34,446 nt of DNA from Gammaproteobacteria bacterium (lineage in GTDB: Bacteria; Pseudomonadota; Gammaproteobacteria; Pseudomonadales; Balneatricaceae), in NCBI GenBank assembly GCA_030748435.1, contig JASMLZ010000088.1, positions 1-34,446 on the forward strand, given 5' to 3'. Shown here in pieces: positions 21,670 to 34,446 of the stretch (positions are counted from its first letter, which is position 1; the number at the start of each line of letters is the position of its first letter). A program made the position numbers and the translations under genes. The notes beneath the pieces are model-generated. The model did no database searches and was not told the DNA's origin. It saw only the letters and a list, made by a program, of their open reading frames with translations.

Positions 21670-22683
21670 TTATCGCCAGCGGGCCTGGTCCATCAGCTTG
21701 ATAACCTGTTGATTAAGTTCGCCCAAGCGGGTCAGGCTAACAGTATCGGCTTTAGGCTGACCATAGGCTGCCAGAACATCAGGCATAGGTACGCCTGCCA
21801 CTACGGGATATTCATTGTTGACATCGGCATACCAACGTTGGGCTTGCTCACTCACCATATATTCCATCAAAGCTATGGCATGTTGTTTATGCTTGCTGGC
21901 TTTAGTCAAGGCCATACCGCTGATATTAAAGTGAGCGCCGCGATCGGACTGATTAGGCCAGAATACAGCCAATTGCCCCGCCACTGCGTTATCCACCCTA
22001 CTATCTGAGCGTTGCAAACGTGCCAAATAATAAGTATTGACCAAGGTCAAATCACAAATACCTGCTGCGACTGCCTTGAGTTGATCAGTGTCACCACCAG
22101 CCGGTGGTTTAGACAGGTTAGCCACCATACCCTGCATCCAGTTCAAGGTCTGTTCAGGGCCATTAGCTATCAGGGCTGCCGCCACCAAAGATTGATTATA
22201 AACATTATCAGACGAACGCAGACACAGTCGCCCACGCCATTGGCTATCGGCTAAATCCTCATAACGCCCCAGTTGCTCTACTGCAACCCGACCGGGCGCA
22301 TAAACAATGGGACGTGCCCGGCTGGTAACACCAAACCAGTGATGGTCTTTATCACGCCAGGCGACTGGAACAACTTGTTGTAAAACACCATTATCAACTG
22401 CCTGAGTCAGCTGCATCTGCTTGGCACGGTGCAAACGGGCCACATCTGTGGTGATTAGCAAATCCGCTGGGCTAGCCATACCTTCCAGGGCCAGACGACG
22501 CAACAAGGCATCATCCTTGCCGGTTAACAGCTTTACCTGGATGCCAGTATCAGCAGTAAATTGCTGCAACAAAGGCAAGATAAGTGCTTCTTTGCGGGAA
22601 GAGTAAATGTTTACCTGCGCCAGGGTCGCTGCACTAAATAACAACAAAGAAGCAACAACCAAACAACGCTTTAATAACAGCAT
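21670..22683 (-). CDS. fbpA: Periplasmic ferric iron-binding protein, copy 1
   Basis: Binds Fe3+ in the periplasm and hands it to FbpB. The frame extends to 22704, but the ATG at 22683 has GAGGG six bases upstream and starts directly with a signal peptide (MLLLKRCLVVASLLLFSAATLA, cut before QVNIYSSRKE). The fold is of the transferrin-like FbpA/IdiA class, with LTGKDDALLRRL, ARPIVYAP and the iron-binding tyrosine pair in LVNTYYLARL. The C-terminal WYADVNNEYPV is typical. First gene of fbpABC, reading away from the imelysin operon across two Fur-box-like sites. About 60% similar by eye to the second copy at 28862. Confidence 0.95.
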   Translation of the reverse strand: MLLLKRCLVVASLLLFSAATLAQVNIYSSRKEALILPLLQQFTADTGIQVKLLTGKDDALLRRLALEGMASPADLLITTDVARLHRAKQMQLTQAVDNGVLQQVVPVAWRDKDHHWFGVTSRARPIVYAPGRVAVEQLGRYEDLADSQWRGRLCLRSSDNVYNQSLVAAALIANGPEQTLNWMQGMVANLSKPPAGGDTDQLKAVAAGICDLTLVNTYYLARLQRSDSRVDNAVAGQLAVFWPNQSDRGAHFNISGMALTKASKHKQHAIALMEYMVSEQAQRWYADVNNEYPVVAGVPMPDVLAAYGQPKADTVSLTRLGELNQQVIKLMDQARWR

Positions 22684-22800
22684 AACAAACCCTCGAAGCC
22701 ACAAGAGGAAAAATTATACAGTATCTAAAACTAAACGAAAATAATTCCTATTTATAAACGACAATAATTGACCCATATCAATAAAAAAACTAATATCTAT

Positions 22801-22838
22801 TGAGAATCATTTGTATTTGAGAAACATAATCGTTATCA
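22801..22838. promoter_or_regulatory. Two Fur-box-like sites between fbpA and the imelysin operon
   Basis: Against the 7-1-7 consensus TGATAAT-n-ATTATCA, 22801-22815 (TGAGAATCATTTGTA) matches 10 of 14 and 22824-22838 (ACATAATCGTTATCA) matches 11 of 14. They lie between divergent fbpA (start 22683) and imelysin (start 22887), so both operons are probably repressed by iron-loaded Fur. Confidence 0.75.
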
Positions 22839-22886: not shown

Positions 22887-24218
22887 ATGAATCTGAAACA
22901 AGCTATCAAACTAGCCCCTCTTGGGCTGGCCACGACTATGATGGCCTCTACTGCCGTGGCAAGCCAAGCTAACAAGGCTATTTTGCACACCTATGCCGAC
23001 CTTGCTGCCAGCAGCTACAGTCAGGCTTTAACCGATGCCCAAAGCTTGCAAGCAAGCCTGCAAGCTTTTGCCGCCTCCCCCAGCGCGGGCACCATGGAAG
23101 CAGCCAAGCAAGCCTGGTTACAGTCACGTGAATCCTATGGAGTAACGGAAATTTTCCGTCTGTCTGAAGGCCCTATTGATGCCGAGGAAGGCTGGGTAGC
23201 CGATGCTTACGGCGCTCTGGAAGGTCAGCTAAATGCCTGGCCTCTGGATGAAAATATGATCGACTACACCACCACAGCCGATGGTTCTACAACATCTGGC
23301 AATATTATCGACACCAAGGGTGCGTTCAACCCAGGTGGCGGTGTGGTTGATGTAGCCACTATTACCTCTGACGCGCTGGCTGCCCTGAACGAAAACGGTG
23401 GCGACGCCAACGTTAGTTCCGGCTACCACGCCATCGAATTCCTGTTGTGGGGCCAGGACCAGGACTACGACAACTTTGCTGCTGACACAATTACCAACGG
23501 CGCCTTGACTGCTGGTGAGCGTCCTTTAACTGACTTTACCGAAGATGCTTTGGCTGCCCGTCGCTTTGAGTACCTGAATGCTGCAGCTGACCTGCTAGTT
23601 ACCGATCTGGAAACCGTTACCAGCGCTTGGGTTGATGGCATTAGTTACAGTGGCTGTGCTACCGATATGACCGGCTGTTACCGTTCCGCCTTCCTCGGTG
23701 AACTGACCGGTGCCGATGCTGCAAAGAATATTGCCGACACTGACGCCTTGCGTACTGTCATCTCTGGCATGGGCGTATTTATCAAGTCTGAACTGGCTAA
23801 CGAGCGTATCGCTGTTGCCGTATTGACGCCTAGTGAAGAAGACGAGCACTCCTGCTTCTCTGACAACACTCACCGTGACATCGCTCTGAACTATCAGGGT
23901 TTTGTCAATGTATTAAAAGGTGAACTGGGTAGTGCAGATATGGGCGTTAGTATGTATGATAGCGCCTCCGCAGACACTCGCAGTCAGTTAGATAGCCTGA
24001 TCAACGCCATCGACACTCGTGTAGCGGCGGTCAATAATCTGGCTGAAACCAGCATGCACTTTGACTACCAGATCGTTGATGCCAAGCAAGCCGGCGAAAT
24101 TCGTCGTATGAAAAACGATATGCGTAAGTTGGGCGACGCCATGACAGCTGTTGCGGCTGATCTGGGTATCTCCCTGACCGTCGAAGATGTAACCGACGCA
24201 GAAGAAACACAACTGTAA
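22887..24218 (+). CDS. Imelysin-family (M75) periplasmic iron-uptake protein 1
   Basis: A 443-residue exported protein (signal peptide to about residue 25, ASTAVAS). Imelysin/ICMP/IrpA proteins are iron-regulated all-helical periplasmic or surface proteins related to the metal-binding part of EfeO and are implicated in iron uptake. The family's GxHxxE motif is present as G179-Y-H181-A-I-E184, next to FLLWGQD. A later HSCFSDNTHRDI segment also fits the family. First gene of a plus-strand operon with the di-heme oxidoreductase 7 bases away. The two Fur boxes upstream support iron control. Protease activity is not expected. Ligand and partner are unknown. Confidence 0.92.
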   Translation: MNLKQAIKLAPLGLATTMMASTAVASQANKAILHTYADLAASSYSQALTDAQSLQASLQAFAASPSAGTMEAAKQAWLQSRESYGVTEIFRLSEGPIDAEEGWVADAYGALEGQLNAWPLDENMIDYTTTADGSTTSGNIIDTKGAFNPGGGVVDVATITSDALAALNENGGDANVSSGYHAIEFLLWGQDQDYDNFAADTITNGALTAGERPLTDFTEDALAARRFEYLNAAADLLVTDLETVTSAWVDGISYSGCATDMTGCYRSAFLGELTGADAAKNIADTDALRTVISGMGVFIKSELANERIAVAVLTPSEEDEHSCFSDNTHRDIALNYQGFVNVLKGELGSADMGVSMYDSASADTRSQLDSLINAIDTRVAAVNNLAETSMHFDYQIVDAKQAGEIRRMKNDMRKLGDAMTAVAADLGISLTVEDVTDAEETQL

Positions 24219-31038: not shown

Positions 31039-31073
31039 ATTATGGTTAAGAACTGAGCTACAGATAAGTATTA

Positions 31074-31095
31074 TCCCCGCAGTATTCTGCGGGGA
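31074..31095 (-). terminator. Strong hairpin after the DUF4856 gene
   Basis: TCCCCGCAG (31074-31082) and CTGCGGGGA (31087-31095) form a perfect 9-bp GC-rich stem with a 4-base loop, 9 bases past the stop of the minus-strand gene. Only a weak AT-rich tail follows (ATAATACTTAT on the minus strand). Likely transcript end. Confidence 0.65.
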
Positions 31096-32496: not shown

Positions 32497-32545
32497 CGTT
32501 CTTGCTCTCAATTTAGTTACATTAAATTGAACATTTTATTTGAAT

Positions 32546-32571
32546 AGATTTGCAAATGCAAATCTTTCTCA
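32546..32571. promoter_or_regulatory. Palindrome and Fur-box-like site between DUF4856 and the orphan gene
   Basis: AGATTTGC (32546-32553) and GCAAATCT (32558-32565) are 8-bp inverted arms. Overlapping it, 32557-32571 (TGCAAATCTTTCTCA) matches 10 of 14 of the Fur consensus. Opposed promoters cross here: minus strand TTGCAT-N17-TAAAAT, plus strand TTGCAA (32550-32555)-N18-TAGAAT (32574-32579). Both divergent genes should be controlled together. Confidence 0.65.
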
Positions 32572-32611
32572 TTTAGAATAGTGATATATTTATCTTTTTA
32601 GAGAAAAAATC

Positions 32612-33031
32612 ATGATCCCTAATTTCCTCTGTCAAACCCATCGCAAACATTATCAACAACACCCCTCAGAGGCTTTGCTGGCATGGGATAATTGGATGAG
32701 CGCAGGACACCAGTCAGTACTTAACCAAGACAACGAAAGAGCTTTTCGCTATTACGGCAGCAGTATGGAAGTAGCTGCGATACTGATGGAACAGAGCACA
32801 CAAATCGCTTTAACCGCTATAACACCTTTTGAACGTTATCAATTAGCAGGACAACATTTGGCTGAATTGTGTCACCGCAACAGCCATGAAGAAATGGCCA
32901 ACGCTATCGTGGAGAAGTTAAACCAAGTGCTCGTTAATCAACGCTACCACCCTGTTACTAGAGCCACTGGCGCGGTTAAAAAGGACAGTTATGAGCAACC
33001 AACGCCCACTGTTTCTATGCGTGTGCACTAG
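32612..33031 (+). CDS. Hypothetical helical protein, 139 aa, in a Fur-type intergenic context
   Basis: I do not recognise a family. The product is cytoplasmic by lack of signal or membrane segments, mainly helical, rich in Gln, His and Ala. Segments such as EALLAWDNWMSAGHQSVL and RAFRYYGSSMEVAAILMEQ look like pairs of amphipathic helices, as in TPR-like proteins; the C-terminal 25 residues seem disordered. Nine His and two Cys are spread through it. It starts at an ATG with AGAG upstream, reads away from the DUF4856 gene, and shares the Fur-box-like divergent region, so it is probably iron-regulated. It could be an adaptor for iron or heme handling; this is a guess from context only. Confidence 0.7.
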   Translation: MIPNFLCQTHRKHYQQHPSEALLAWDNWMSAGHQSVLNQDNERAFRYYGSSMEVAAILMEQSTQIALTAITPFERYQLAGQHLAELCHRNSHEEMANAIVEKLNQVLVNQRYHPVTRATGAVKKDSYEQPTPTVSMRVH

Positions 33032-33322
33032 ACATGCATTGTGACCAGTAGTTGGGCGCTACAATAATCTCTAAACCGTTGATCTTATTGGGCAGGGATT
33101 GCTTTGACTAGCTGACAATAATAATGTCATGAGTAGTTAGAGATCCTCCAAAAAAAGCTAACCCCTATTGCCCACTATACAAGCACATACCCCACACCAT
33201 TTGCTATGCTACACCATCAATATCCGGGCCAGTTCGTGCTTGGTACAATGTCAGGTATAACACGCCAGACAAGATAAAATAGCTAGGGCATTAAAAACTT
33301 TGTTATTTTTTTAAAATTGTTA
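33032..33322. other. Intergenic stretch before the sRNA promoter, nothing assigned
   Basis: About 290 bp without a convincing frame. A possible fold: GGGCA (near 33091) with TGCCC (near 33171), enclosing TGACA-ATAATAA-TGTCA. This could be the 3' end of the upstream transcript. No known riboswitch or RNA was recognised. Confidence 0.35.
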
Positions 33323-33351
33323 TTGATAATCATTTTCATTTGCATTAAGAT
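33323..33351 (+). promoter_or_regulatory. Sigma-70 promoter overlapped by a strong Fur box
   Basis: TTGATA (33323-33328), 17-base spacer, TAAGAT (33346-33351) form a good -35/-10 pair. The Fur box TGATAATCATTTTCA (33324-33338) matches 13 of 14 consensus positions and covers the -35, the best Fur site in the window. Transcription would start near 33358 and be shut off by iron-loaded Fur. Confidence 0.85.
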
Positions 33352-33357
33352 TAATAT

Positions 33358-33497
33358 CGAGAGTTGCCCAAGGTCAAAACACTTATTCTTTTCCAGCTGT
33401 TTTCAAGTGCCAGCAATTACCAGAAAGATTAAGTCTTTGGGACACTCTCATTACCATCTCTCAAAATTAGCCCGTACTCTGTACGGGCACTTTTTTT
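33358..33497 (+). ncRNA. Candidate Fur-repressed small RNA (or attenuated leader of hemS)
   Basis: From the predicted start near 33358 to the U-tract end at 33497 is about 140 nt, with no good reading frame or ribosome site. A pyrimidine-rich, apparently unpaired segment CTCTCATTACCATCTCTC (33444-33461 region) lies before the terminator, resembling the seed segments of iron-sparing small RNAs. Promoter, Fur box, length and strong terminator fit RyhB/PrrF-type RNAs. In P. aeruginosa the prrF genes lie beside the phu heme-uptake operon, and here the candidate lies beside a hemS-type gene. Because the terminator is only 13 bases before the hemS ATG, a leader with transcription attenuation is the alternative. 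Confidence 0.6.
33470..33497 (+). terminator. Rho-independent terminator just upstream of hemS
   Basis: GCCCGTAC (33470-33477), loop TCT, GTACGGGC (33481-33488), then AC and seven T (33491-33497). A perfect 8-bp GC-rich stem with U-tract, the clearest intrinsic terminator in the window. It sits between the Fur-box promoter and the ATG at 33511. Confidence 0.9.
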
Positions 33498-33510
33498 CAA
33501 GAGAACGCCC

Positions 33511-34446
33511 ATGCTTACCAACTTCTACCCCATCAGCACCAAACACCTGCCAGTTAATCGTTTTAGCCTGCTAAGCCAAATTGCAAAGGCCTTTAAAGCC
33601 ATCAATTTGCGATCACCAATAAGTCACACTCCACCAACAGCAGCAACCCAATATAATCATCTAGGGCAATGGGCGGAAGACTTTAACCATCAGCTTGCCG
33701 GGCATCAAGCGACCATTGGCACTGACAATAAGGATATTAAAATTTATCAATCTGGCAAGCTTGGTCAGTTACGCCTCTATGGTGACATGGGATTATTGCA
33801 AGGCGGTGATATTGACACATACTTCTACACTGAAAACTGGCGCAATATAAACCACCAGCAAGACGACATGCATGGCTCCCTGATATGTTCCGATGACAGT
33901 CAACATCAAGCTTGGCAGTTAAACAGCACACATCTCAATACACAACTGGCATACCAGAATTTGAGCTTATCACTGCCAGAGCCACAAGCCACCATTCAAC
34001 AAGTCGCACCTACCAGTGTGGAAACGAGTGAACTCAGACAGATGTGGGCATCTTTAACACAAGTCCACCAGTTTTATGATATGTTGAGCCTTTTCAAGCT
34101 GGGTCTGCTTGACGCTATCAAGCTGATGCAAGGCCAATGGACCCAACCTATCTCCAGGTACCAGTTAACCAGGTTTTTACAACAGTGTCTGGAACACAAT
34201 CTGGACAGTAAAATCCTTGCCGGGAATAGAGGCATAGTGCACGTGCTTAAGTCCCCCATCCTGCACCTTAATCAGGATCCTAACCAGCTAACTGTTAGTG
34301 GTCACAACTATCGTTGTGAGGTAAATCTACAGGCTATCAAACAAGTCTGGTTAGTTAAACGCGCCACCAAACAGGGAATTGTGCACTCTTTGGAGGCCTT
34401 TGACTGTCACGATCGACTTATCTTGCAAGTACAAGAGCAACGACAA
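33511..34446 (+). CDS. hemS: HemS/HmuS/PhuS-type heme-handling protein (3' end outside window)
   Basis: 312 codons are open to the right edge; the family is about 340-350 residues, so only the end is missing. The C-terminal repeat is well matched: W179-x-SLTQVHQFYDMLSLFKLG (about 179-198), ILAGNRGIVHVLKSPILHL (about 235-253), then VWLVKRATKQGIVHSLEAFD (279-298), all family hallmarks. The N-terminal repeat is weaker but shows the matching end (GDIDTYFYTENW). These cytoplasmic proteins receive heme from an ABC importer and pass it to heme oxygenase or degrade it. The ATG follows the terminator by 13 bases and has only a weak AAGAGAA ribosome site, so expression must rely on read-through or a promoter inside. 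Iron control by the Fur box at 33324 is likely. Confidence 0.85.
   Translation, partial: MLTNFYPISTKHLPVNRFSLLSQIAKAFKAINLRSPISHTPPTAATQYNHLGQWAEDFNHQLAGHQATIGTDNKDIKIYQSGKLGQLRLYGDMGLLQGGDIDTYFYTENWRNINHQQDDMHGSLICSDDSQHQAWQLNSTHLNTQLAYQNLSLSLPEPQATIQQVAPTSVETSELRQMWASLTQVHQFYDMLSLFKLGLLDAIKLMQGQWTQPISRYQLTRFLQQCLEHNLDSKILAGNRGIVHVLKSPILHLNQDPNQLTVSGHNYRCEVNLQAIKQVWLVKRATKQGIVHSLEAFDCHDRLILQVQEQRQ

Follow-up and report, generated by a model that had tools for sequence, protein, structure and literature searches.

We propose that the DNA directly ahead of the hemS-type gene at the end of the window (the whole stretch of 34,446 nucleotides that was analysed) encodes a Fur-repressed iron-sparing small RNA, an analogue of RyhB, PrrF and BrrF with no detectable sequence kinship to them, which would also serve as a terminated leader of hemS; we put the probability of this reading at about 0.7. 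A Fur-repressed promoter would give an RNA of about 140 nt that ends at an intrinsic terminator and accumulates when iron is low, and its exposed segment CAUUACCAUCUCUC would base-pair across the start codon and ribosome-binding site of messages that encode iron-rich proteins, reducing their translation and sparing iron. The best candidate targets are nuoB and sdhC, followed by a ferritin-like gene, gltB and sdaA. Some polymerases would pass the terminator and produce the hemS mRNA, and because that mRNA would arise by read-through, heme use would be tied to the iron signal of the RNA. Sequence, conservation and, more weakly, the predicted targets make membership among the Fur-repressed iron-sparing RNAs likely, and the anatomy of the locus together with the joint presence and absence of RNA and gene indicates that the RNA is probably also the hemS leader.

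Anatomy of the locus and of the proposed RNA

A Fur-like box lies on the forward strand at 33319-33343, where a 16/19 match at 33319-33337 (GTTATTGATAATCATTTTC) overlaps a 14/19 match at 33325-33343, scored against what we take to be the Fur consensus. It is identical in G010, the same-genus genome that served as the reference for pairwise comparison. Across 968,711 sampled bases of the source genome (G000), scanned on a single strand of this near-palindromic site, the match at 33319-33337 scores highest and is the sole site with at least 16; the runner-up is one site at 15 and the remainder score 14 or less. The window holds two more Fur-like sites: 22819-22837 (15/19) lies in the gap that separates ORF 21670-22704 from ORF 22887-24218, and 31057-31075 (14/19) in the gap that follows a DUF4856 gene. 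The site before hemS overlies the putative promoter of the proposed RNA and is kept there in G010. The placement of a Fur box over a promoter ahead of hemS, as the first-pass annotation described it, holds in its coordinates. This sigma-70-type promoter (33323-33351, forward strand) has a −35 element TTGATA at 33323-33328, a 17-nt spacer and a −10 element TAAGAT at 33346-33351, which by eye reads TATTAT in G010. It had been called a good promoter; it is present, with 9 of 12 consensus positions, and unremarkable alone, seven sites of that grade occurring in 32500-34446 against 4.0 expected in shuffles. Because such matches are common in the region, the case for the promoter leans on its conservation and on its overlap with the Fur-like box.

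At the other end, an intrinsic terminator occupies 33470-33497 of the forward strand, with an 8-bp stem at 33470-33488 closing a UCU loop, then AC and a run of seven T (U in the RNA) at 33491-33497; the region 32500-34446 holds four terminator-like sites against 1.4 expected. G010 keeps the stem and the seven T with one pair-preserving change, and in both genomes 13 bases separate the end of the T-run from the hemS ATG (33511). The earlier description of a perfect terminator at this distance is right as to position and slightly generous as to perfection, given the two bases between stem and T-run. With these adjustments, its account of the locus anatomy is confirmed.

The proposed RNA of about 140 nt, its start placed from the promoter, would extend from 33358 to 33497 on the forward strand and is conserved in G010. 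Its predicted fold has an energy of −41.4 kcal/mol (z −4.9, with none of 200 shuffles as low), and the G010 copy gives z −4.8. In the model, a long 5′ hairpin (33359-33449) is closed by GAGAGU (33359-33364) with ACUCUC (33444-33449) and is followed by a segment predicted to be exposed, CAUUACCAUCUCUCAAAAUUA (33449-33469), which we call the seed; its sequence is identical in G010, and the mean unpaired probability over 33450-33469 is 0.92, with 0.88 in G010. Over the full structure, 28 of 28 pairs are kept between the two species, with three one-side changes and no two-side changes, and there is no covariation in these two sequences. The stretch had been described as free of reading frames for some 140 nt. 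An 85-aa frame starting with TTG does run through it in the source genome; no frame is conserved, as the G010 copy carries an 8-nt insertion and a 1-nt deletion, and these indels rule out a conserved peptide encoded in the 140 nt. At the level of sequence, the stretch reads as a putative short RNA that is non-coding and ends at an intrinsic terminator of its own. The RNA would end in a seven-U tail and would presumably use Hfq; a search for the Hfq motif among the collected loci gave one match, which is not Hfq. Rfam returned no match at the gathering threshold over the whole window, and at E up to 10 over 33200-33600 it returned five matches far below gathering scores (E 2.2-6.3), none of them RyhB or PrrF. 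The RNA is, by this search, outside the RyhB and PrrF Rfam sequence families.

Conservation and distribution

When a 261-base stretch of the locus was compared with 95 genomes, 10 matched at E ≤ 0.001, the source genome included; only the source genome and G010 match past the Fur box and promoter, and the other eight cover query positions 11-60. Between these two genomes, identity is 37-38% upstream (33100-33300), rises to 91% over 33311-33356 (91-94% for the promoter), is 67% with nine gap columns in the 5′ half of the RNA (33357-33443), reaches 98% (53 of 54 columns) over the seed and terminator (33444-33497) and falls to 69% in 33498-33510. The hemS DNA that follows is 55%, 62% and 67% identical in three successive parts, and the HemS proteins are 57% identical. 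The conservation peak of the locus is the exposed segment with the terminator and not the start of hemS. A lack of conservation between promoter and terminator had been named as a result that would speak against the RNA; the seed and terminator are instead the best conserved DNA of the locus.

Across the genus, model R1 finds the RNA in two of 15 genomes (the source genome, with one copy found, and G010). A close hemS is likewise found in these two, and neither is found in the other 13, so that RNA and gene are found or missing together in 15 of 15 genomes, several of which are incomplete (completeness 67 to 100%). Four further weak matches in three genomes, obtained in a laxer genus search, were rejected as coding or unrelated DNA by eye, one of them lying inside a DUF4856 gene. 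Filters were stricter in the searches of family and order than in that of the genus. R1 detects the RNA in two of 116 genomes of the family, with three matches in other family genomes (E 0.05-0.08) set aside because they look like ordinary terminators, and one reverse-strand match at the same locus of G010; among 390 genomes of the order it detects the source genome only, two matches elsewhere (E about 0.002-0.003) being set aside for the same resemblance.

One congener, G003, a near relative of G010 (95.9% identity across 688 nt of the locus), is without RNA and hemS via a single gap of about 1.5 kb: where G010 has 1500 nt with promoter, RNA and hemS, G003 has 32 nt. The similarity ends 72 nt before the end of the small upstream ORF and restarts past hemS; G003 is 67% complete, yet its contig is continuous across the locus. 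As the source genome and G010 share the unit, its deletion in G003 is the simpler reading. The seed is also absent from 1.45 kb upstream of the DUF4856 gene in G001 and G013, two of six congeners besides G003 that have this gene; none was seen in the upstream DNA covered in any of the six (more than 1.4 kb in G001 and G013, 111-468 nt in the other four). This patchy presence, with the joint absence in G003, provides natural comparisons. In two congeners without detected RNA, Fur-like boxes precede a short gene that by eye is lipoprotein-like and imelysin-like, at 1501-1527 of locus L006 in G001 and of L007 in G013.

Predicted targets of the exposed segment

We scanned start regions (−40 to +25, taken from a simple gene caller, so that some starts are wrong) with the exposed 28-nt segment that includes CAUUACCAUCUCUC. 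In the first scan nuoB was the best of 600 genes of the source genome (−25.4) and sdhC the best of 455 genes of G010 (−22.4). Both still led their respective genomes when 836 and 727 genes were scanned, nuoB remained first of 1006 sampled genes of the source genome, and sdhC led 220 ortholog pairs by summed energy (−39.1; next −33.3). The predicted nuoB duplex has 17 unbroken base pairs, G-U included, over the Shine-Dalgarno sequence and start codon. Shuffled segments equalled the best score of the source genome in 4 of 100 cases and the best ortholog sum in 7; for the best worst-of-two score the count was 29, for the best of G010 it was 53, and for each of the two genome-wide means it was 6. 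With 4 and 7 of 100 shuffles matching these two leaders, we regard nuoB and sdhC as suggestive, not proven, targets. Target prediction with the CUCUCAUUACC segment had been proposed as a check on the RNA: the top targets do use that stretch and fit iron sparing, with modest statistics. A second pairing segment around AAUUACCAG was dropped when its energies proved better within genes than at starts. A wobble pattern search for targets gave counts about equal to control, and a 14-mer search gave counts not above control, though it pointed to nuoB.

Comparison among species bears on both leading candidates. No nuoB was found in G010, which leaves that target without confirmation in the second carrier; its site differs by eye in all five congeners that have nuoB and no RNA, and the energies, computed for two of the five, are −7.8 each. 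For sdhC the carriers give −16.7 and −22.4 (G010), and 10 of 13 non-carriers give −8.9 to −13.3. The pairing stays fair in three genomes without detected RNA, G003 (−22.3), G005 (−15.0) and G014 (−15.0), the last two nearly equalling the source genome. Shuffled segments reached a carrier mean of −19.5 or lower in 0 of 200 cases and a contrast between carriers and others of −6.5 or lower in 1 of 200. The SdhC proteins nearest to that of the source genome are those of G010, G003, G005 and G014 (77-87% identity, against 54-61% for the remainder), and since these are the same four genomes, shared ancestry by itself might account for some of that contrast.

Iron and heme proteins in the rankings were classed unblinded from Pfam and general knowledge. 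Five of the top 20 ortholog pairs belong to them, namely SdhC, SdhD (just under the Pfam cutoff), a Rieske protein, cytochrome b and heme A synthase, representing perhaps three operons; a sample of 30 pairs from ranks 61-220 contains none, with LpxC taken to be a zinc enzyme. Iron and heme proteins likewise make up five of the top 20 of 836 genes in the source genome (NuoB, serine dehydratase, a ferritin-like protein, glutamate synthase and heme A synthase) against none of 20 from ranks 101-836, a control for which 30 were drawn and 20 scanned, with NuoA, which is without iron, included and MerR-type and cNMP-type regulators counted as non-iron. The second ferritin-like gene on contig C74 is a predicted target at −18.6, rank 13 of 1006. 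Other Fe-S or heme genes rank low among the 1006, namely a nuoF-like gene (252), an sdhA-like gene (266) and ccoN/ctaD-like genes (370 and 806), and iron proteins recognised by motif are scattered across all ranks of this set. Motifs for sodB, aconitase and catalase had no match in the sample from the source genome, which says little because the same motifs missed the ferritin-like genes too. The start of a PLP-enzyme-like gene (by eye; L248 in G000, L209 in G010) pairs at −19.0 and −18.8, and by this sum it would come second in the list of ortholog pairs, a set assembled before the G000 copy was retrieved.

The hemS leader, alternative explanations and known systems

The hemS-type gene (33511-34446, forward strand) is truncated by the end of the contig after 312 codons and matches PF05171 (HemS) with 54.6 bits against a cutoff of 24. 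It probably continues on C74, where the end of hemS lies together with two ferritin-like genes. The final 141 bases of the window (34306-34446) are the start of C74, an identity that is probably an assembly-graph overlap. HemS relatives in other genera are 24-31% identical, mainly in the C-terminal half, besides one 33-residue match at 56%. With 13 bases between T-run and ATG, a transcript of hemS has either to read through the terminator or to start within those 13 bases; the terminator stands between the promoter and hemS with no other promoter, a sequence arrangement that has the same spacing in G010. The possible hemS Shine-Dalgarno sequence AAGAGA (33499-33504, forward strand) is predicted to pair with the seed in the read-through transcript, with a mean unpaired probability of 0.20 (0.21 in G010). 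The first-pass annotation had offered an iron-sparing sRNA, a hemS attenuator or both, an interpretation that is supported in part. Conservation and the predicted targets, within their modest statistics, fit the first, and both together is the natural reading because hemS has no room for another promoter; for attenuation of hemS the argument is anatomical.

Could the element act in cis only, as a Fur-controlled leader whose terminator attenuates hemS while the short RNA has no role in trans? The 13-base spacing that leaves no space for a second promoter, the shared presence and absence of RNA and hemS noted above and the seed predicted over the possible Shine-Dalgarno sequence in both species would all suit such a leader. 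We nevertheless consider it fairly unlikely, as it leaves unexplained an exposed, near-identical segment that pairs with nuoB and sdhC, and by eye no conserved alternative fold to the terminator was seen in the two species; an antiterminator pairing of AAGUGCC with GGCACUU, also judged by eye, is possible in the source genome and mismatched in G010. RyhB and PrrF are separate genes. Each is directly preceded by its own Fur site (PMC7377471), and a terminator of 8-bp stem and seven T would likewise suit a free-standing trans-acting sRNA, with hemS fed by rare background read-through and its closeness incidental. That hemS has no other visible promoter, and that one gap removes both in G003, speaks against this reading, which we hold distinctly unlikely.

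An ordinary long hemS 5′ UTR with a chance hairpin and no stable short RNA could account for shuffled segments sometimes reaching the same pairing scores; we hold it very unlikely, since G010 keeps the stem and seven T with a pair-preserving change and conservation peaks at the seed and terminator rather than at the start of hemS. Within our preferred reading of an iron-sparing sRNA that is also the hemS leader, one speculative extension, to which we give little credence, is that CAUCUCUC has a dual use, silencing mRNAs of iron-rich respiratory proteins in trans and covering the hemS Shine-Dalgarno sequence in cis in read-through transcripts, so that target pairing would free hemS translation. 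If true, iron sparing would be coupled directly to heme use.

The locus had been likened to RyhB and PrrF in its architecture, and the parallel we find is one of function and neighbourhood, with none in sequence: the RNA has no Rfam match, in which it differs from RyhB and from PrrF, and one copy was found in G000. RyhB is a free-standing gene, and PhuS is a relative of HemS. In Escherichia coli RyhB is Fur-repressed and acts on sdh and nuo genes (PMC2851614, PMC7948967, PMC7377471); here sdhC and nuoB are predicted targets. PrrF1 and PrrF2 of Pseudomonas aeruginosa, of 116 and 114 nt, are Fur-repressed and affect sdhCDAB, and read-through of the prrF1 terminator yields PrrH (PMC2851614); here read-through would enter hemS and not a second sRNA. 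The prrF1 promoter is bound by PhuS, a heme-binding protein of the cytoplasm, without which PrrH does not show its heme response (PMC7948967); PrrH is repressed by heme in PMC2851614 and rises with heme at 5 h in PMC7948967. The PrrF/PrrH system and our RNA have in common an intrinsic terminator, Fur repression (here proposed), an sdh target (here predicted) and a link to a heme gene, phuS there and hemS here (PMC2851614, PMC7948967). BrrF of Burkholderia cenocepacia, an iron-starvation sRNA reported to be without sequence similarity to known Fur-regulated sRNAs, is linked to the heme gene hemP and has sdhC and nuoB among its predicted targets (PMC7377471), and the RNA described here resembles it in its heme-gene partner, predicted targets and lack of similarity to known families. 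In that account, BrrF lacks a Fur box immediately ahead of it, and its expression is taken to depend on that of hemP (PMC7377471), whereas here the order is Fur-like promoter, RNA, heme gene.

Among the matches listed in literature on Fur-regulated sRNAs, heme genes and UTR-derived sRNAs, no title names this RNA. Listeria belongs to a phylum different from that of the host here. Its Rli51 is a terminated 5′ leader with a second role as a trans-acting sRNA, a precedent for the RNA here, although it concerns a gene other than hemS and the cited part of its description mentions no control by a Fur box (PMC11394854). If our reading is true, it adds an iron-sparing RNA without an Rfam match in a little-studied genus, marine and gammaproteobacterial as far as habitat and class can be judged, and a further case, beside PrrF-phuS and BrrF-hemP, of such an RNA adjoining a heme gene. 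Should unrelated sequences have come to such a linkage repeatedly, a general benefit from joining heme use to iron sparing would be suggested.

A further stretch with a Fur box at its head and a terminator at its end, about 200 nt long and holding no ORF of 60 aa, was seen at 1501 to about 1770 of L003 (G052) and again in L005 (G040). It matches no Rfam family at gathering score, and R1 does not hit it at E up to 1. The two species that share it belong to another genus of the same family, and in them it precedes an FAD-oxidoreductase-like gene (by eye); it is perhaps a separate iron sRNA.
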